A stretch of DNA of 64,000 nt from Spirogloea muscicola (lineage: Eukaryota > Streptophyta > Zygnematophyceae > Spirogloeales > Spirogloeaceae): positions 735,923 through 799,922 of the forward strand of contig WELB01000028.1 in the NCBI GenBank assembly GCA_009602725.1, written 5' to 3'. The notes beneath the pieces are model-generated. The model did no database searches and was not told where the DNA came from. It worked only from the letters and a program-made list of their open reading frames with translations. Of the stretch, positions 1,040 through 62,780 are shown in pieces (positions within the stretch are counted from its first letter, which is position 1; each line of letters starts with the position of its first letter). Position numbers and translations under genes: made by a program.

Positions 1040-1990
1040 TTTGTTCATTCTTATTTGGGCTGGCTTTTTCCAGCCCCTATCCTCAATGGGCGAGCCCTTC
1101 ATCGACTTACGAATCCCTCCGGCTCTCCGACGACCTCTTCCGGCCGGCTCTCCACCATCATCTCGGCCTCCCTCCACTTTGTTTGGCTGGCATTCGACAG
1201 TGTGATTGTGGCCATCTGTTCGGAGGATGAGATTTCTTTGGCAGCTCACATGCTTCGATTTTTTGAGGTAAGTGAACGTAATGCCTCCCACAATCTTCTC
1301 AGAGACGCTATGTATAGCTTGGTGCGCGAGGCAGGTTACCATGCAGCCATGGAGGTGCCGGGCATCATGCCGGTACTCCAGAAGCGCGGCAGGCCCTACA
1401 TCAGACGTCTGGATGTGGTTGCGGACCCCCCGGTGCGGTGGGCCTCGTCTCGTCCTTGATGTCATTCTCATTGACGCCTTCCAACCAGGGGCACCCACAC
1501 CATCTGTGCCAGGTTGGGCGACACATCATGCGGAGAGGAAGAAGGAGAGGCACAACAATGACCACCCCCGGGGCGACCACTTCTTCCCATGCGCCATGGA
1601 CATGTAAGGCGGCTACGGAACAAAGTGGTCTTCCCTCCTCCATCGCCTGGCTCTGCATGTCGATGCCCGCCGACGTAGTCGGGCGGGTAGCTAAGGGCAT
1701 TCTAGCGTCCCGCAAGCCATCGTTGCATGCTATAGAATGCAGCTATCAGAGTCTACAGCGCTCCCAGGCACTTACGATACACCAGCGTGCTGGGCGTGCA
1801 TTAGCCCAGGCCAATGCATTCCGTGGTGGTGGTTCGGCTCCTCAGCTTAGCTTGTCAGATATGCATGTGCTCACTCGGGGATATTTAGTGTCCCCCTTAG
1901 CTAGCTCATTACCCCGTAACAGGACATTTGTAAGGCTAGAAATGGCCTCCCTTTCAATTTCCTGCGCACCGTGCGCCTTCTCTCCCCAAA
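1040..1990 (+). mobile_element. LINE fragment: endonuclease domain to 3' UTR
   Basis: A 5'-truncated copy of the family whose long copy lies at 7230-11600. Residues such as AAHMLRFFEVSERNASHNLL, then IMPVLQKRG and RRLDVVADP, align with HMLRC.., SIMPIQLGADG and RRADLVATP of the long copy. Downstream come D-V-I-L-I-D, R-G-D-H-F-F-P-C-A-M-D and the terminal S-D-M-H-V-L-T-R-G-Y. The segment order fits a PD-(D/E)XK restriction-like endonuclease and its C-terminal extension. Frame changes show it is dead. The first ~50 bases (1040-1090) are a separate 3' UTR scrap. Confidence 0.75.
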
Positions 1991-7229: not shown

Positions 7230-7329
7230 CAAGTATCGTGTAGAGGATGATCACTTGGTAACCTCTGATTAGCAGCAGCAAGTCAGAATAAGAAAGGCTA
7301 GCCGCCGGAAAGCAGTCCCCGTGGCTTCG

Positions 7330-7615
7330 CAGCCGCGATGGACAAGGCAGCCTTCACCACCGCCTTGCTGCAGCTCCCCGGAGGCCGACCTGCGCGGGCG
7401 TGCGAGACACCACTCGGCCTCTTCCCCGGGGGGCAGCGGCGTGGCTCCAGGCCCTCCCCCTCAACGACGCCCTCACTCTCCCGGACGAGGTATTCCGCAG
7501 TGCCGTCCACCGGCTCCTCGGCCTGCCGCCGCCATGTCTCCAGGGTGTGCGTCAGTGTGAACGTGGCGAGCGAGGGGCCGAGCCTGGGGAGCTCGCCGAA
7601 CATTTTACGCCGTAG
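7330..7615 (+). mobile_element. Second LINE fragment, inverted inside the long copy
   Basis: On the plus strand this encodes ADLRGRAR, then TLPDEVFRSAVHRLLGL and a degenerate knuckle (RQCERGE). It matches the minus-strand segment at about 7850-8120 (SDLRGRAR, TMPDEVFRTAVHRLLGL, NQCECGA) at roughly 70% of residues. It separates the AMDIYGGYG segment of the long copy from its terminal codons. The divergence suggests a separate insertion rather than a simple inversion. Confidence 0.75.
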
Positions 7616-10559
7616 CCTCCGTAGATATCCATGGCACGCGGACAAAAATGGTCCCCTCGGGAATGGTCCTGGTAGTGCCGCTCCTTCTTGAGCTCCGCGG
7701 TGGGCGTGGCGACCAGGTCGGCGCGTCGTGTATGGGGCTGGCCGTCCGCGCCCAGCTGGATGGGCATTATTGAGGAGTTCTCCACAGCCACCTTGAAGCC
7801 AGCCTCCATAGACACCCCCTGCATACCATCTCGCAGGAGATCGTGGAAAGCGGTCCGATCGCCCCTGTGTGCGCAACGGAGCATATGTGCAGCCAGCTCC
7901 GCAGGGTCAGCGTTACGGGCACCGCACTCGCACTGATTAGCGCCCACGAGGCAGGGAGGGAGGAGGCCCAAGAGCCGGTGGACCGCCGTCCTGAAGACCT
8001 CATCGGGCATGGTGAGCGCCGCGTGGAGTGGGAGCGCTGATAACCACGCCGCCGTCCCATGGGAGGAGGCTGAGAGAAGCCGGGCGCGCCCTCGAAGGTC
8101 AGACGGAGGGAGAAGCTCCACCACCTGGTCAGCGGCCGCTTTTTCATTCAGCGCTGAGAAACGTGCCTGGGCACGCAGGTCAAGGGTGTGGGCGAGGGGC
8201 GAGGTGGATGAAAGGGACGGCCTGCTCCAACATTTTGGGGTGGACCGCCAGGAGCCTGTCGCGGGCAGAGCGGAGGGCAACCTGAAAGGGCAGCTGGCCG
8301 ATCTCCACTTCAGCTGCCGCCCGCTCCAGGGCGCGCTGGACGTAGACGAGGAACCTCTGGCACATGGGGGCTGCCACCTGAGCCCAGCTACCCATGTAGG
8401 CCGCCTCGCAGGCGCGGGCAACTGAGCGGCATCCCAGCTGCCGCGGCTGGTCAGCAGGCTAGCCTGCAACAGCGCAGCTGGTGAAGTGAGGAACGCAGGG
8501 TGCTGCACGAGGGTGGCCGCGGACGCCAGGATACCGGAGTCAGAAGCCGCATACGCTGCCTTCACCGCCGATGAGGGAGGGATGGTGCGGGCCAGGTAGT
8601 GTGGTCGCTGCGCGAAGCGTGTCAGCATCGCGGTCGCCAGCTGCATGTCCTGCAGCATGTGAAGACAGTCCGCCGGCCGGAGGTGTTCCTGCAGCCGCGC
8701 CTGCAGCTGCTCCGTCACAAAGGCAGGTGCGCCTAGGGGGACGCCGAGGAGGGTGAGGCCCCCGGCTGGTGTCTGGCAACCCTCGGGCAGGCGCAGGTGG
8801 GCTGGCAGGCCCTGAGGGGAGCAGGCGCTGCATTTGTCCGCCCGAATGTCCAGGTCGATCGCGTTCAGCTGCACTTGGAGGGTGGCAAAGGCAGCTACGA
8901 CATCCTCTGGCTTCCCCACCAGCGTGGTGTCATCAGTGTATGTCGGCACGAGGACGCCAGGGTGAACCGCGACCATTGCCTGGAGCGCACGGTGATGTGC
9001 CAGAGCGTGGTAGAACCCCGCCAGTGGATCCCCTTGGCGCGCGCCCCTGGTGGAGTGGATGGTCGTCGCTGAACCACCCCCCGCCCGCCACTGCAGCTCG
9101 CATGGCTGACCGGACCCCATCCTGAAGAAGGGTAGAAGGCTGGGGAAGGCCTCTCTCAGCTCCTCCGCGATGACATTACGATCAACGCTGTTGAAGGCGT
9201 TGCGGACGTCGACCGCCATAGCCACCCATTCGGGATGCAGGTCCAGGGCGGCCCGTACGCCGTGCACGACTGTTTCACCGCCGCTCCGCAGCCCCGCACC
9301 AAACTGTTGGGGCGCCAGGTGTGCCTGGGCCTGCCCTGCGTGCTGTTGCCAAAGCGCGCGCCCCACCAGGCGGCACCTCACCAATGGCGATGGGCCTGAC
9401 CCCCCCACCGGCCTTGCTGAGCGCCAGCAGTGTACTGGTGCACAGGATGTTGCGAATGCTGGCCGGGACCTGGTCGCGAGCGAGGAGCTGGCACACCTGG
9501 TGGAGCGCCTGGAAGTCGGCCGGGTCGCCCTCCAGGAAGATTACCTGGAGATGCTCGGTAAGCATGTGGGAAGGACCTCCAGCGGCCGCGCAGCGGCTGC
9601 TCTGCAGGGCCCTCTGCAGGGCGTCGGCTTTGAGGACCACCTCCTCCGGCGGTGCGAAGGTGGCCAGCCACGGGGGCAGGGGGTGGCGAGCCGCAGGGTG
9701 CAGGGACTCCAGGGCCGCCCTTGTGGCAGCATTGGTGGGCGCCAGCACCGCGTCGTCCAGGGCCTGGATTGCCCTTGAAAACTCGCCCGCGTGACCGAAC
9801 CGCAGAGCCCGGCGGACATTGGCGGCCCTGTCTGGTGCGGCCTGCGCGTCACCTCGGTTTGCTGCCGCGGCCGCCACCGCTGCGTCATGGGGCGCGAGAA
9901 GCTCCTCCCAACGGTCGCTCTCGAACAATCGGACGCGCTCCAGAAGGGGCTGCTGGCCCTGCCAGCGGCCGTCGTGGGGGGCACGGTCGAGCAGTAGCCG
10001 GGGGAAGAGGAGAAACTGCTTCCAAGCCGCCTCGTCCCGGTGGACCCTGGCAATCCGCTGCATCGCCGGGCGGAGCGCACGGCGAATGTGCGGGCGCACC
10101 CAGCGGGGCACATGGTGGAGGAGCGGGAGGGTCGCCTGGCGGTGGATGGCAGCCAGGTCGAGGCCGGCCAGCCACTGCCAGTGTTGAGGCGTGGGAGGGG
10201 TGGGCGCGGGAGGGACAGGCCTGCCTGGTCTGCCCCGGCGGCCGCCCGCAGCCGCTGCGCTCCACACCTGCGCCACACGGTTGTTGTTGAGCGCGCAGGC
10301 GCGCTCGTGGTTGGCCCGGCCTGACCGCGTGGTGAAGGTTGTCTGGCAGTGCTGGCACAGCAGGGGGTCGGGCGAGGTGGGGGCGAGGGCGGTGGAGCTG
10401 GTGCGCTCGGTGAAGGCGGAGGCGGCGCTGGCGAGGACGGCGTCGAGGGCGCCGACGACAGGGGGCAGGGCGGCTCGAGAGGCGGGATGGCGGATGGCTG
10501 GAAAGACGGAAGCGCAGACCGGGGGAGCGGCGGCAAGGTCGAGGCGGGTGGCTGGCACA

Positions 10560-11090
10560 GCGGAGGTGGACTCTGGGGTGACGGTGGCGGCGACGTTGGC
10601 GACGGTGGTGACGGCGGCAGAGGCGGCAGCGACGGCGGTGGGAACGGCGGCCCTGCTGCCACGGGAGGCGCACTCACGGGGATATCAGGGGCAGCATCAC
10701 GCCCAGGGGACAAGGCACCCTGCGGAGAGACCGGGTTCACCTCAGGGGGCCCTTCACATCTCGAGGGCTGAGTCGATAAAGCAGGTGCCCGTTGCTTCTC
10801 ACGGGCGGGAGGCGATACATGCTCCTCCATGGTCTGCTCCTGAGGTGAGGCTGCCAGGACCGTGACGATGGGGCCGCAAGCCGCAGCGGCCGCATCGGCT
10901 GGCGGGCACGGCGAAGGTGGACTATGTGGCGGCGGTGGCGGCGACTGCGGCGGCGGAGATGACGGCGGCGGCGGCGACGGCGGTGGTGACGGCGGCCCTG
11001 GGGCGGGAGGCAATATACGCTCCTCCGGAGATCTGTTCCTGAGGTGCGGCTGCCAGGACAGTGGCGTTGGGGTTGCAGGCTGCGGCGGCC
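10560..11090 (-). repeat. Duplicated proline-rich coding segment in the LINE N-terminus
   Basis: A block at about 10797-10890 recurs at about 10999-11090 (shared GGGCGGGAGGC, GCTCCTCC, TCCTGAGGTG and GGCTGCCAGGAC), with GGC/GAC-rich DNA between. On the coding strand it gives long runs of P, S and A between the two zinc fingers. Confidence 0.6.
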
Positions 11091-11715
11091 ACATCGGGCG
11101 TCGAGCCAGCGGGGCTGGGATACCCCTTGCAGTGTTTCCGGTGCGAGGAGACACCGCGGGGAGTAGCAAATCCCGCGGACAGGTTAGGCACGGCACGCGC
11201 GCGGACGCCGCAGGCGGGGAAGACGGTGGCGGGAGAGATAGGGGGGTGGCAGGTGGGGGCGATGGCGCTGGGAGGGGGGAAAGGCGGAAGGGGCGGCGGC
11301 GGAGGTGGCGTGGTGGCGGCATGGAAGGCGGAGAAGGCGAGGAACCGCTGCGCCCAAGCGAACTTGGCCGGGGGAAGTTCGGGACTCCGGCTCCGAAGGC
11401 GGCGCGGAGAACGCGCGGGTGCGGCGACGGGAGCGACGGGAGCGACGGTGGCAGCAGGGCCCGGCGTAGGGGCAGGGTCGGGAGGGGGCCTGCACGCCGC
11501 CGTGGACCCCATGGCGGGCGCCTCCGGCGACGGCGCCGGCGGCGGCCCGGGGTTCAGGAGGGGTGGCGGCGGCGGCGGCGGCGGCGCCTGCTTGGAGACC
11601 TAAGGCAGAGGCTGCAGCTAGAGCACGGCGGTTGACGAGCGGCCGTTCGCCATGTGTAACTAGGGGCTCCCAGAGCTTCAGTCGGCCCAGCTCGCCAGCC
11701 AGCCCCGCGGCGGCC

Positions 11716-13466
11716 ATGGACGGGTGGGACACGGCGACGCGGTCGACGGTGCAGCGCATCCCGCTGCTGGCCACCAAGGCCGGCCCGCGCGAAGGCGAGG
11801 CCTGGAAGAAGCGCCTCAAGGAGGAGTACATGGTGCGCACCGCTGCCGCCGCCGGCACAGCGGCCGCCGCCGCTGGCCGCCGCCTCGTCGTCATCCCTGA
11901 CGGCCGCCCGCGCTCCGCCAGGCTTTGATCAAGTACATGGAGATGAACAAGGCGAGCGACAGTGACTGGTTCCGCATCGCCGCGGAGGACGCGGAAGGCA
12001 CCCGGTGGCGCGGCCGCTGCTGGTACGTCCACAACCTCCTCAAGTACGACTTTGAGCTCCGCTTCGACATCCCCGTCACCTACCCCGCCACCGCGCCCGA
12101 GCTCCAGCTCCCCGAGCTCGACGGCAAGACCGCCAAGGTGTGCAGCATTTCTGTCCACCGCCGCTGTTGCAATTGGCGGGGCCTGGCCGCGCCACCTTTG
12201 TGGCAGTAGCCGTGGTCACTTGCGTGACCAGCGGCCATGGCGGCGCTGGTCCTGCACCGCGCACTCTCCACCGACTTTAGACATAAAGGTCGCTAATCGA
12301 TGCCTCAATACCAGACGGCAAATTTGAAGCCTTCTGCCACCAACTAGAGCTTGCCCAGCTTTCTGCAAAGCATGAGCCTGAGCACGCTGTAAACAGGCCG
12401 ACACTCGTCGTCGCAAGAACGACAGATATGCAGCTGGCAAACCCATCTCAGCCGGAAGCACATCTGCACGTCGTGCATACCCTACATTGGCAATATTCTG
12501 AAGGAGAGTGTGAAACCGAGGACCTAAACAGCCAAAGATATCGACTGCAGCATTACTTCGACTACCACCGACGCGATCTTTTCCTGCCAGCTGCAGTCGA
12601 TAACTTTGGCTGTTTAGGTCGTCGGTTCCACACTCTCCTTTAGACTACTGCCAATCTAGGGTATGCACGACATGCAGATGTGCTTCCGGCTGAAATGGGT
12701 TTGCCAGCTGCAAATCTGTCATTCTTGCGATGACAAGTGTCAGCCTGTTTACAGCGTGCTCATGCTCATGCTTTGCACCAGAAAGCTGGGCGAGCTCTAG
12801 TTGGTGGCAGAAGTGCTTCGAATCTGCCATCTGGTATTGAGGCATCAAATAGCGACCTTTATGTATTGACCCGTGGTTACTGAGCAGGTCACTCTGCAGT
12901 GGGTGGTGTACATCAATAGATGCGCTTGACTTCTTTGTACTTGGCCATTTTGGCCTTTGTTTGTTTCAAATACACGTTAATTTTCCTCTTAGAGGAGTCC
13001 ACGGTACTTAGTGTGCCTGAATGAAGTGTGTGGCGGGTGCTTTGTGCCGGCTGCGGTGGCGCAGATGTATCGCGGCGGCAAGATCTGCCTTACTATCCAC
13101 TTCAAGCCCCTGTGGGCCAAGAACTCGTGAGAGCCGGTTCTTGCCTGCTCGTGCTGTCCTTGCTCACGGCAAGCTCTTATTGCAGGGTAGCCCTTGCCAA
13201 CCCCATGCGATCGCATGGCTGCCTGCCTTTAAAGAACCCCCTGCAGGTGACTGTAATATGCTGTGCTCGTGTGGCTACGCAGGCCGCACTTTGGCATTGC
13301 ACACGCGCTCTGCCTGGGTATGGCGCCCTGGCTGGCGGCCGAGGTCCCACACCTCGTCGACACAGGCGCCATCCGGCACCAGGACGGCGCTGGCGCGGCT
13401 GCGCCAGCAAGGCCTCTTACCAGCAGCCAAGAAGATAGGGCACGCAAAGACAAAAGCGCTTCATAG
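11716..13466 (+). CDS. UFC1: UFM1-conjugating enzyme E2 (UFC1)
   Basis: E2 of the UFM1 pathway: it receives UFM1 from UBA5 and, with UFL1, passes it to targets such as ribosomes at the ER. Four exons (11716-11832, 11922-12137, 13065-13126, 13283-13466) close in frame to 192 aa, slightly longer than the usual ~165-175 because of a polar C-terminal tail. Family landmarks: start [66 protein letters not shown], then [19 protein letters not shown] with the active-site cysteine (about residue 119), and [20 protein letters not shown]. The start gives the conserved N-terminus exactly. Intron 2 (12138-13064) carries a LINE hairpin, and a LINE ends about 115 bases upstream of the start. Confidence 0.95.
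12281..12985. mobile_element. LINE inverted duplication (hairpin) in UFC1 intron 2
   Basis: Left arm 12281-12550 and right arm 12591-12864 are reverse complements over about 270 bases; a 40-base loop separates them. The right arm is in plus orientation, encoding the LINE C-terminus to [10 protein letters not shown]-stop (12856-12890). The 3' UTR follows to about 12985 (GTACTTGGCCATTTTGGCC, then TTCAAATACAC). The loop encodes RRDLFLPA, the equivalent of RGDHFCPRA in the long copy. Confidence 0.9.
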
Positions 13467-29410: not shown

Positions 29411-29499
29411 AGAGCCTGAGGCTACAGCCAGGGCACGACCAAAACGAAGATGCAAGGCATGTGCCAGGTAGCGCTGCAGGGAAATGTCACATCGCATTT

Positions 29500-29738
29500 G
29501 GGACACTGAGGCCTAAGAGCCCATGGCGGAAGGCCAGCCCGGAAGGGTGGACTGGATTCAAGGCCAGGAAAGTAAGCTCTTCCAGAGTGGGCGAGAGCTG
29601 TTAACAGCAGCCAGAAAGTCCAGACAAGGTTAAAAGAGCTGAAAGGCGCTAAGACAACACAGCTATGCCCAGTGGCTACAGGAATGGGAGTATAGTAATC
29701 CCGAGTCAGCAACCGCAAAGAGAAATAAAAAATCTTTT
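29500..29738 (-). mobile_element. LINE 3' end fragments
   Basis: Minus-strand 3' UTR core (GGGCTGGCCTTCCGCC type) at 29520-29550. A second piece ends near 29700-29720 in degenerate terminal codons (C-G-L-L-T-R-D-Y-Y). Confidence 0.55.
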
Positions 29739-31745: not shown

Positions 31746-32205
31746 GAAGCGTGAGTAGTAATATGTGAAGGGCCTGTGTGGCCAAGTACAAAGGCAAGCA
31801 CATTGACAAATGTACATCGCCTGCTGCTAAGCTGACCCATTCAGTAACCACGACTCAGCACATAGAGGTCGCTAACTGATGCCCCAATACCAGACGGCAA
31901 TGGACAAGCTCTTGAGCTACCAGCTAAGGCTCGACCAGCTTTCTGATGCAACGCATGAGCTCGCTGCAGACAAGCTGACACTCGGCGATGCAAGAATGAC
32001 AAGTAGGCTGCCGACATGCCCATCGGAGCTGGAAGCATATCCTCACGTCGAGCATATCCCAGACTAGCAATATTCTCCAGTAGCGTATGGAGGCGAAGGA
32101 CCCATCCAGCTGAAAGTGTCATCGCGGCTGGTAGGAGATGGTCACTGCGGGGGTAGTCAGAGTAGTGTAAACCAAGCACAACAAGAAACAAAGCATTCAT
32201 TCTTT
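31745..32205 (-). mobile_element. LINE subfamily B 3' end, coding to UTR
   Basis: The minus strand encodes [50 protein letters not shown] and ends S-D-L-Y-V-L-S-R-G-Y-stop near 31841. The UTR runs to about 31745. It matches 12591-12985 and 41480-41890. Confidence 0.85.
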
Positions 32206-32518
32206 TTTGGGCTGGCTTTTCCAGCCCCTATCCTCAATGGGCGAGCCCTTCTCCTCAGTGTAGGAGCTTTCTGTGCTCTGCACCTCCCACTGCGTGTCCA
32301 GCAATATCGGTCGATGCTGCTGCTGATTTGTACGCTTCCGTCACCACCACGTCAACCAAAGCTCGTGGGCCTCCGCCGGGTTGTGACGAGGTAGCCCTAA
32401 TGTCCACCCCAGGAGTGGCGGGCCTGACGATTGGGGATTCGTATCGGTGCGTGACACGAAATGGCGCTTCGGCTGGACAACTGCCGGAGACACAAAGCGG
32501 CGCCTCCTGGGCACAAGA

Positions 32519-54663: not shown

Positions 54664-55110
54664 ATGAAGAGGGCGGATATGTTCTTCCCTCTTGCTGTTG
54701 ATATTCACGGGGCGTTTGGTGCTCGGTGGCTCGAGCTCCTCCACAGGCTCTCGCGCAGCCCTGTGTCCCGCTGTTACCACAGGAGCAGGCTGACTTCAAA
54801 GCAGCAGGCTCTCTCGCTCAGGAGTATCACATGCGCCTGTCTGTCTTGCTGCAGCGGTCATCAGCACGCGCGTTGCATCTGCGTGCTGGTGGCTCATTGG
54901 CTGCAGCCTCTGGTTCTTGGGGGACCTGCTACCCGGAGACTAGTTTCTCCGACCTGCGGCTGTTCAATAGAGGTCAATGAGTGCCTCGTGGCCACTTGAT
55001 TCACTGTGTGCTTTAGCGCTTTCTCTGGCCCCTTCGAACTTTGTTGCTTTGTCTGGGCTGGCCTCCCACAGCCATTGCCCTCTACTGGATGTCTCTTCTT
55101 CTGATATTAT
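54664..55110 (+). mobile_element. LINE 3' end, coding to UTR
   Basis: Encodes R-A-D-M-F-F-P-L-A-V-D-I-H-G-A-F-G-A-R-W-L-E-L-L-H, then HMRLSVLLQRSSARALHLRA and S-D-L-R-L-F-N-R-G-Q-stop near 54978. The 3' UTR follows (GTGTGCTTTAGCGC, GGCTGGCC..CAGCCATTGCCCTCTACTGGA) to about 55090. It is the best preserved short copy and defines the coding-to-UTR junction. At least one frame change is present. Confidence 0.85.
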
Positions 55111-60419: not shown

Positions 60420-62780
60420 CTTACGGTTAGTGGCCATGAAAGGCCAGCCCAAGATAAATAACAAGTTCACGTTGGATCAAAGGTCCAACAACCCAACGCA
60501 AATCACTCAGCAGAACAAGCGGCTACCACGACGGTGAGGTCTGGGAGCAATTTGAGTGCTAGCTTCCGGCTATCCGTGCATATAAGTCAGAAGGCCGTCT
60601 AGAAACCAAAGAGGAAGGAAGGCCGTCGAGGGACCAAGTTTGTAGGGCTCTCGTCACTATTGTGGGCTGGCCTCGCACAGCTACCTTCGGACCTTGTCCA
60701 CTCTTCGTTTGGGCTGGCCATCGGCCCCTTTGTATAACCTCGTCCTTCTACGCCAAAAATGAGATAGCTTCATCTGTTGTTGCAAGAGCTGATCGAATCT
60801 GCTCTCCGTGACCTCTGCGACTGGACGCCCTTCAACCTTTAGTCAAATCGTGCACTCCGGGGTAATCAGAGGGCTGATCAGAATCAGAGGGAAAAGCTTC
60901 GCCTTTGTCAAAAGCCAGACGCAGCAGCCAAGGTGTTGAAGTGTCTCTTCCAAATCTGGCCGCGCTTGCTTCTTCCAAAGGGAACAAGGTTGTGAAGAGC
61001 CAGAGGAGGTCATAAGGAGCCGCAGAGGAGTAGTAGCTCCTCCACAGAAAGGTAAGCTCATCGAAATTGGCCGAGGGCTGTAAGAATCCCGCCCGAAAGA
61101 AATTGACAAGGTCCGAGAAGTAGAAGCAGCTCCTTCCGAAGAAGGAAGATAGATTAGAACAGCTCTTCCACTGCTCTTCTTAAAGGGGCGAGGGCTTGGA
61201 AGCCAGCCCCAGAAAATGGACAAGGTCCGAAAGGGCCGGGAAGTGCTTAAACTTATACGAAGCAAGTACCAAGAAGTATGGTCACTTTCAATTTGCCTAG
61301 TGAGAAACAGCTTCTCCAATGTAAGACAATGGCTGTGAGAGGCTAGCACAGAAGTCAGAACAAGGTCTGAAAAGACTGGGACGTAGAATTCAGGGAACTT
61401 CTCTCTGTGACGTCTGCTGATTATCTCAATTACTTCTACTCAGCTAGTGCAGATCGGAGTAACTAGAGGATAGAAAAACGTGGCACTGTCGGAACCGGGA
61501 GGCAGCAGCCAAAGGCGCGGCCTGCCCGCAAGTGCACGGCAAACGCCATGGTAATTGCTCGCCCACAGAGAAGAGGGGCTAGCAAAGCCAGCCCAAAAAA
61601 GAAGAAGTGGCTCTCCCAAAGGGTGCAAGGGCTGTGAGAAGCCAGCCCGAAAAGAATTGACAAGGTTCGAAGGGGCCAAACTACGAGCTAAGCAGCGACT
61701 GCGGGGCCTGAAGAGGCTCTGGCAGAACGGGGGACGATTACTCAGTAGTTACGAGTGAGGAGCCTCACATCCGACAGACTAGAAGAAGAAGAAGTGGCTC
61801 TCCCAATGGGGGCAAGGGCTGTGAGAAGCCAGCCCGAAAAGAATTGACAAGGTTCGAAGGGGCCAAACTACGAGCTAAGCAGCGACTGCGGGGCCTGAAG
61901 AGGCTTTGGCAGAACGGGGGAGGATGGACCACTCAGTAGTTACGAATAAGGAGCCTCACATCCGACAGGCTAGCTGCCGGAAAACTATCCCCCTGACGAA
62001 AGCCGGAGGCCGCAGCGAGAGGCACGGCCAGCACGCTGATGCAAGGCGTGGGCCAAACTAGAATAGACAATAGAGAAGGGCTCGCCCATCGAGTACAGAA
62101 AAGCGCGCCCATAGAAAAGAGGGGCTGGCCAAGCCAGCCCAAAAAAGAATGGACATTGTCCAAAGCCAAAGCAAGAGGAGCCGGAGAAAGGACTACACTA
62201 CAACATACTGCAGAACACAGAAACGATGCAGAGGAAAGCTCAGTACCCGCGAGTGAGCAACATCAGGTCTGAGTAGCTCGCTGCAGGGAAAGAGGCGCTC
62301 CGCCGAGACCCAGAGGCGGCGGCCATAGCACGGCCTGCGCGCGTATGGACGGCGTGGGCAAGGGAGCGTTGAAGCGATACGGCCAGGCGCATGCGGAAGA
62401 CTTGTGCGAGCGACCCGGCGGCGTTGAAGCCGGGCATCGCCCCTGGCAGACCCGGCCGCCAATCAATGGCCTGGCGAGCAAGCCGCTGAATGAGATCCAG
62501 CCAGCGGCTGCCGAAAGCCCCGTGTACATCCATCGCCAGGGCCGCGATCGAAGGGGCCAAACTACGAAGGGGAGCGCAAGCTCTAATAGAGGGAAGGATG
62601 AATCACTCAATAACGAGTGAGGAGCTTCAAATCTGACAGACTAAGCTGGCGGAAAACAATTCCCCTGACGAAAGCCAGAGGCAGCAGCAACAGCATTGTG
62701 TAGGGGCTGGGAAAAGCAGGGGCTGGGAAAAGCCAAGTGCGCGCCCATAGAGAAGAGGGGCTGGCAAAGCCAGCCCACCA
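60420..62780 (-). mobile_element. Array of LINE 3' ends (mostly minus strand)
   Basis: Successive minus-strand 3' ends: UTR cores at about 60435-60470, 61050-61105, 61190-61235, 61325-61360, 61585-61665, 61805-61865, 62105-62160 and 62760-62780. Coding ends include S-D-V-R-L-L-I-R-N-Y-stop (about 61935-61970), S-D-L-M-L-L-T-R-G-Y-stop (62240-62270, preceded by FRMRLAVSLQRSLAHAV and AMDVHGAFGSRWLDLI back to about 62560) and S-D-L-K-L-L-T-R-Y-stop (about 62607-62640). One plus-strand core lies at 60660-60715. Confidence 0.75.
61601..61971 (-). repeat. Recent tandem duplication of a LINE 3' end
   Basis: 61601-61781 and 61788-61971 are direct repeats of about 182 bases with only a handful of differences. 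They share the UTR hairpin, GGGCCTGAAGAGGCT and TCAGTAGTTACGA stretches. The period is about 187 bases. Confidence 0.9.

Follow-up and report, generated by a model that had tools for sequence, protein, structure and literature searches.

In this study, we ask whether the LINE on the minus strand of a 64,000-nucleotide stretch of Spirogloea muscicola DNA (the window) belongs to the type that carries a C-terminal restriction-like endonuclease (RLE), and whether the long extension that the preliminary description took for its conserved C-terminal module is part of it. The feature is probably a dead copy from a divergent R2-like non-LTR retrotransposon lineage with a C-terminal RLE and no recognisable APE; on our best reading, this RLE-type lineage of a streptophyte has been active recently. 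The main idea of the preliminary description is partly supported, in that it holds for the family and not for the tail quoted from the window copy.

Alignment to 20 genomic loci, with the ends as printed there, delimits a dead and frameshifted copy (Table 1). Its coding sequence is scattered over different frames, and the reverse transcriptase (RT) was the sole domain of the copy recognised by Pfam. The C2HC fingers that had been described were located on the minus strand, two in number, the first with a broken frame; the three RT motifs (motif A, GARQGDPL and YTDD) could be placed, and the C-x-C...H...C knuckle followed by an R...H helix was found. Of the endonuclease core, the RRADLVA half is present and the D...K half absent: the copy breaks at 7708/7707, and the second half of its core is therefore missing. 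Among the other copies with a printed 3′ side, 16 of 18 run past RRADLVA as ...GGxGGTCC..., of the IPPGGGPRIIADVV type, with the protein reading ...GGGPRIIADVV...; beyond the same point, the window copy, locus L017 and the first copy in L010 break into other sequence. Below 7708, debris in three pieces gives the false appearance of a genuine C-terminus: a fragment of another LINE family from which RGDHFCPRAMD comes, an inverted piece of a related LINE (tblastn match at 7430-7606 on the plus strand) and an ORF-end scrap. A continuous C-terminal module in the window was rejected, the copy being chimeric there, and the extension from RGDHFCPRAMD to LTRGY that had been described as one unit dissolves into these separate pieces.

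Table 1. Positions of the LINE copy, its parts and its neighbours in the window, and landmarks of the intact protein P0001 (residue numbers)
Feature	Position	Strand	Basis or remark
LINE copy, degraded	7708..11591	-	5′ end at about 11591; break 7708/7707; frames inspected
C2HC finger 1	11129..11190	-	frame broken here; intact counterparts in P0001, P0003
C2HC finger 2, CQHCQTTFTTRSGRANHERAC	10295..10357	-	motif position
Reverse transcriptase, Pfam RVT_1	8818..9342	-	E = 5.9e-9; residues 67-241 of ORF window:7555-9540:-
RT motif A AVDVRNAFN	9190..9216	-	motif position
RT motif GARQGDPL	9022..9045	-	motif position
RT motif YTDD	8929..8940	-	motif position
CCHC knuckle C-x1-C-x12-H-x3-C	7873..7932	-	motif position and spacing
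R...H helix, start of endonuclease region	7826..7857	-	motif position; compared with PMC5678591
RRADLVA, endonuclease core, first half	7708..7728	-	second half (D...K) missing from window copy
Fragment of other LINE family, source of RGDHFCPRAMD	7610..7698	-	75% identical to window 1530-1618
Inverted C-terminal piece, related LINE	7387..7603	+	68% identical to window 7885-8100, opposite orientation
ORF-end scrap SDLLLLIRGY	7258..7287	-	motif position
C-terminal LINE fragment	1060-1884	+	
C-terminal LINE fragment	12536-12880	+	
C-terminal LINE fragment	12330-12572	-	
C-terminal LINE fragment	29411-29545	-	
C-terminal LINE fragment	31844-32470	-	
C-terminal LINE fragment	54676-54974	+	
C-terminal LINE fragment	62243-62545	-	
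UFC1 gene	11904-12206	+	PF08694, E = 2.4e-32
P0001 Met	20		
P0001 finger 1	159		
P0001 finger 2	337		
P0001 RT motif A	719		
P0001 YADD	811		
P0001 knuckle	1147		
P0001 RRADLV	1215		
P0001 DVVTTD	1233		
P0001 KEKKY	1263		
P0001 end LTRGY	1377		

The window copy has many relatives. Bases 9000-11000 of the window match the host genome in at least 73 rows (best 40 of 523 candidates scored), far above chance, and among the matches listed other copies reach at best 92-93% identity to it, with a second set at 81-87%. When the host genome (153 Mb, 471 contigs) was searched at the protein level and the best 34 of 29,660 first-look candidates were scored, intact relatives of two subfamilies were recovered. 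Subfamily A comprises six copies at six loci (L028-L033), which are 99.72-99.93% identical to L028 over 4,273-4,291 bases and have open frames of 1,386-1,433 codons. Subfamily B comprises at least 13 rows, L034 among them, with 67-68% protein identity and open over residues 129/130-1377. The near-identical open A copies at six loci and the 13 open B rows speak for recent activity, and the lineage is abundant. Comparison of A with B gives a dN/dS of 0.16 over the RT and of 0.09 over the last ~85 residues of the C-terminus, the latter a rough ratio with pS at or near saturation; over the knuckle and endonuclease, pN is 0.25 against a pS of 0.75 that is saturated, so that this ratio too is rough. 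Two B copies, C20 and C338, have 746 identical bases in common on their 5′ sides, possibly as duplicates of a single locus. Three others (C453, C66 and C135) share ~310-350 bases of extra 5′ sequence, which we read as a probable carried 5′ extension; the 3′ flanks of C453 and C66 differ, and the end of C135 was not found.

The intact protein consists of two C2HC fingers, the RT, a C-x-C...H...C knuckle, a D-x14-D...K-x2-K-Y/H core and a C-terminus of ~90 residues ending in SDLxLLxRGY (SYSDLMLLTRGY). The RLE-type domain order proposed earlier (fingers, RT, knuckle, endonuclease core) is borne out, and the conserved C-terminal module, lost as a property of the window copy, is real in the intact copies, where it is under selection. 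In the PDB, P0003 matches R2 proteins (9nl3, E = 6.8e-7; 9nl2, 9.5e-7; 9dou, 1e-6), and for P0003 and profiles A3 and A5 R2 proteins are the sole reverse transcriptase matches up to E = 10, in agreement with the R2-type assignment; profile A3 also gave two chance matches (E 0.23 and 1.1), and P0001 as a single sequence gave no PDB match at E ≤ 1. In the endonuclease, D-x14-D and K-x2-K are kept in 11/11 sequences, with Y as the next residue in eight and H in three. Compared with the published RLE, which has a K-x2-K-Y core and a C-x2-3-C-x7-8-H-x4-C knuckle (PMC5678591), the catalytic core fits, whereas three features depart: the knuckle is spaced C-x1-C-x12-H-x3-C in all seven sequences that cover it, the P of the PD motif is replaced by A or V, and in place of GxW after the fourth strand most rows have GxxW (W in 10/11). 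An LQALP stretch ahead of the knuckle in P0001 and P0003 resembles the published INALP helix end (PMC5678591). The RLE assignment is a probable one that rests on these motifs, because the endonuclease profile found chance-level matches alone in the PDB.

That chance-level result, together with an AlphaFold model of the window RT too poor for use (mean pLDDT 36.8), is what could be said for an LINE of the L1 or RTE type with no more than a likeness to an RLE at its C-terminus; in addition, nearly all LINEs described from flowering plants are L1, and several species also have RTE (PMC3747384). We consider this very improbable. The N-terminal APE of L1 and RTE, named in the preliminary description as a finding that would speak against the RLE-type reading if seen in better copies, had no Pfam match up to E = 10 in P0001 or P0003, nor had RNase H; the PDB matches are to R2, and over the same E range L1 ORF2p is not among them; and the catalytic spacing is kept in every sequence compared. 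Genome-wide, the APE models PF14529 and PF03372 gave 0 and 10 matches (eight of the latter partial), counts which do not amount to an absence of APE LINEs, the sensitivity of both models to algal L1 being uncontrolled. A PF13966 search gave no match in the control genomes. Descent from Dualen/RandI, LINEs that combine APE and RLE, by loss of the N-terminal APE is somewhat easier to entertain and still improbable. Dualen, known in Chlamydomonas, is the RLE-bearing LINE reported in green algae (PMC8226300, PMC4640811), and to that extent it resembles the Spirogloea LINE; however, the two intact proteins lack a detectable APE over the E range given above, their N-termini carry C2HC fingers in its stead (Dualen being compared by description only), and their RT matches R2.

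By layout, RT similarity and catalytic motifs, the element works like an R2-group RLE LINE, an assignment made at group level and with two published features, the knuckle spacing and GxW, lacking. It has in common with R2 (PDB 9dou, which is R2Tg, 9nl3 and 9nl2) the RT, the N-terminal fingers and a D...D...K-x2-K-Y core after a CCHC knuckle. Unlike R2, it has a different knuckle spacing and many dispersed copies, and neither 28S nor other RNA genes were recognised as targets at seven of its loci; where R2 proper uses one site in 28S rRNA, no Rfam family matched at gathering level at these seven loci, and the junction sequences differ. The layout of N-terminal fingers, RT, finger and RLE given for Utopia, of the NeSL/Utopia group, in PMC4640811 is also that of the intact protein, yet no U2 or tRNA match was found at the seven loci, and Utopia is reported from Amoebozoa, SAR and Opisthokonta, not from Archaeplastida, whereas the Spirogloea LINE is in a streptophyte. 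HERO, which according to the same source includes many non-specific families, is compatible with the absence of a fixed target. Scanning found no relatives in viral contigs. Among the papers listed in the literature searched, with Repbase and most subscription papers outside its scope, none on an RLE LINE without APE in green algae or plants was found, and these empty searches are the whole basis for calling the family undescribed, as the preliminary description had suggested it may be.

The 3′ end of the element is a hairpin followed by ATGGGCGAGC and then by TTCTTCT, without poly(A). This exact end is present at 10/13 B junctions, and four of the six A copies end in TTCTTCT. The hairpin pattern matches 4184 + 4183 times in the genome, where a few places are scored on both strands; with the reversed control the figure is 2 + 1. 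Between A and B the tail is conserved in 51/64 columns and the preceding 3′ UTR in 46/86, which fits the kind of 3′ end recognition that PMC3747384 calls 'stringent' in other LINEs. In 21 tail sequences the stem is, by eye, almost invariant with little covariation, and the hairpin folds better than shuffles (z -2.39 and -3.59). An ORF end lies within 330 bases before 31 of the 51 distinct tails in the fetched sequence, by a loose pattern; the remainder are preceded by unrelated or tail sequence, as expected because very short 5′-truncated copies would give such tails. CGAG occurs within GGGCGAGC, the sequence that follows the hairpin; in a monocot L1/SINE tail, PMC3747384 names CGAG as a conserved neighbour of the stem, and the coincidence may be chance. 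For a 5′ ribozyme, two weak matches lay far below the cut-offs.

The preliminary description had noted that LINEs of this order are often site-specific. Comparison of target sites between copies did not bear this out for the Spirogloea LINE: a fixed target was rejected, the first bases past the 3′ end differing among copies. Long target duplications are not general, two of seven copies exceeding all controls (with 8 and 7 bases). Matches to LINE ends were found in 11/29 of the 120-base flanks at junctions, in 17/99 distant flanks and in 39/486 window tiles (Fisher p = 0.020 for junction against distant flanks, and 2.2e-5, with the flanks partly non-independent), and in 10/25 junction flanks when the three carried 5′ flanks were removed and C20/C338 counted once. 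On contig C1, 24 gaps between tails are shorter than 1 kb against 4.2 expected (98 positions, among the matches listed), and the maximum in 5,000 simulated runs was 12. By eye, the insertion target in L040 (from about base 200 on) and in L029 (before 2070) is another LINE family, which has a 3′ tail of a different kind. Clustered and nested copies are also described, in PMC8226300, for Zepp and Zepp-like L1 elements of green algae; Zepp, however, is an L1, and the tails of the Spirogloea LINE are spread along contigs with local clusters, among the matches listed.

Beside the observed domain order, near-identical open copies, protein selection, poly(A)-free 3′ end and tail clustering, we infer a cycle of insertion and, with it, a cause for the preference for tails. 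A single protein of ~1,360 residues would bind its own mRNA at the conserved hairpin of the 3′ tail, its endonuclease would nick DNA, and the nick would prime reverse transcription from the fixed 3′ end in a target-primed manner. The 5′ side would be cut short in most products, leaving thousands of hairpin tails, and without a fixed target insertions would often fall in or beside the tails of earlier copies and so build nested clusters. Chances are about even, in our estimate, that the preference is instead merely regional, LINEs gathering in permissive, tail-rich regions without the tails being chosen. The distant flanks of the same loci are themselves richer in tails than the window tiles, the position within the target tails varies by eye from copy to copy, and 9 of 17 insertions have no adjacent tail match, the other eight having a LINE-end match on at least one side; the excess of adjacent over distant flanks argues against a purely regional effect. 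Returning to a preference for the tails themselves, a bolder idea, possible and rather doubtful, is that the element represents a separate plant-line clade of RLE LINEs, distinguished by a particular knuckle spacing and C-terminal end. Such a clade would have become a main LINE in an alga closely related to land plants and would live for the most part by insertion, in either orientation, into the 3′ tails that its earlier copies left, thereby making its own safe landing sites. If a streptophyte does harbour an APE-less RLE LINE lineage that is abundant and recently active, an old type would have persisted near the origin of land plants. The near-identical open copies with defined ends also allow target choice and the recognition of 3′ tails to be studied outside animals.

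Within the window, the RT is kept in the copy at 7708-11591 alone among the LINE pieces. The other C-terminal fragments belong to related LINE families and have 32-90% protein identity, and five of the seven carry a SDLxxLxRG(Y)-like end. The UFC1 gene lies just past the 5′ end of the LINE copy, in opposite orientation. GRAS genes are also present on the contig of the window (C28), with 92 GRAS matches in the genome as a whole, and GRAS loci often occur in threes that resemble one another. This points to triplication of the streptophyte genome, as would suit a zygnematophyte such as Spirogloea muscicola.
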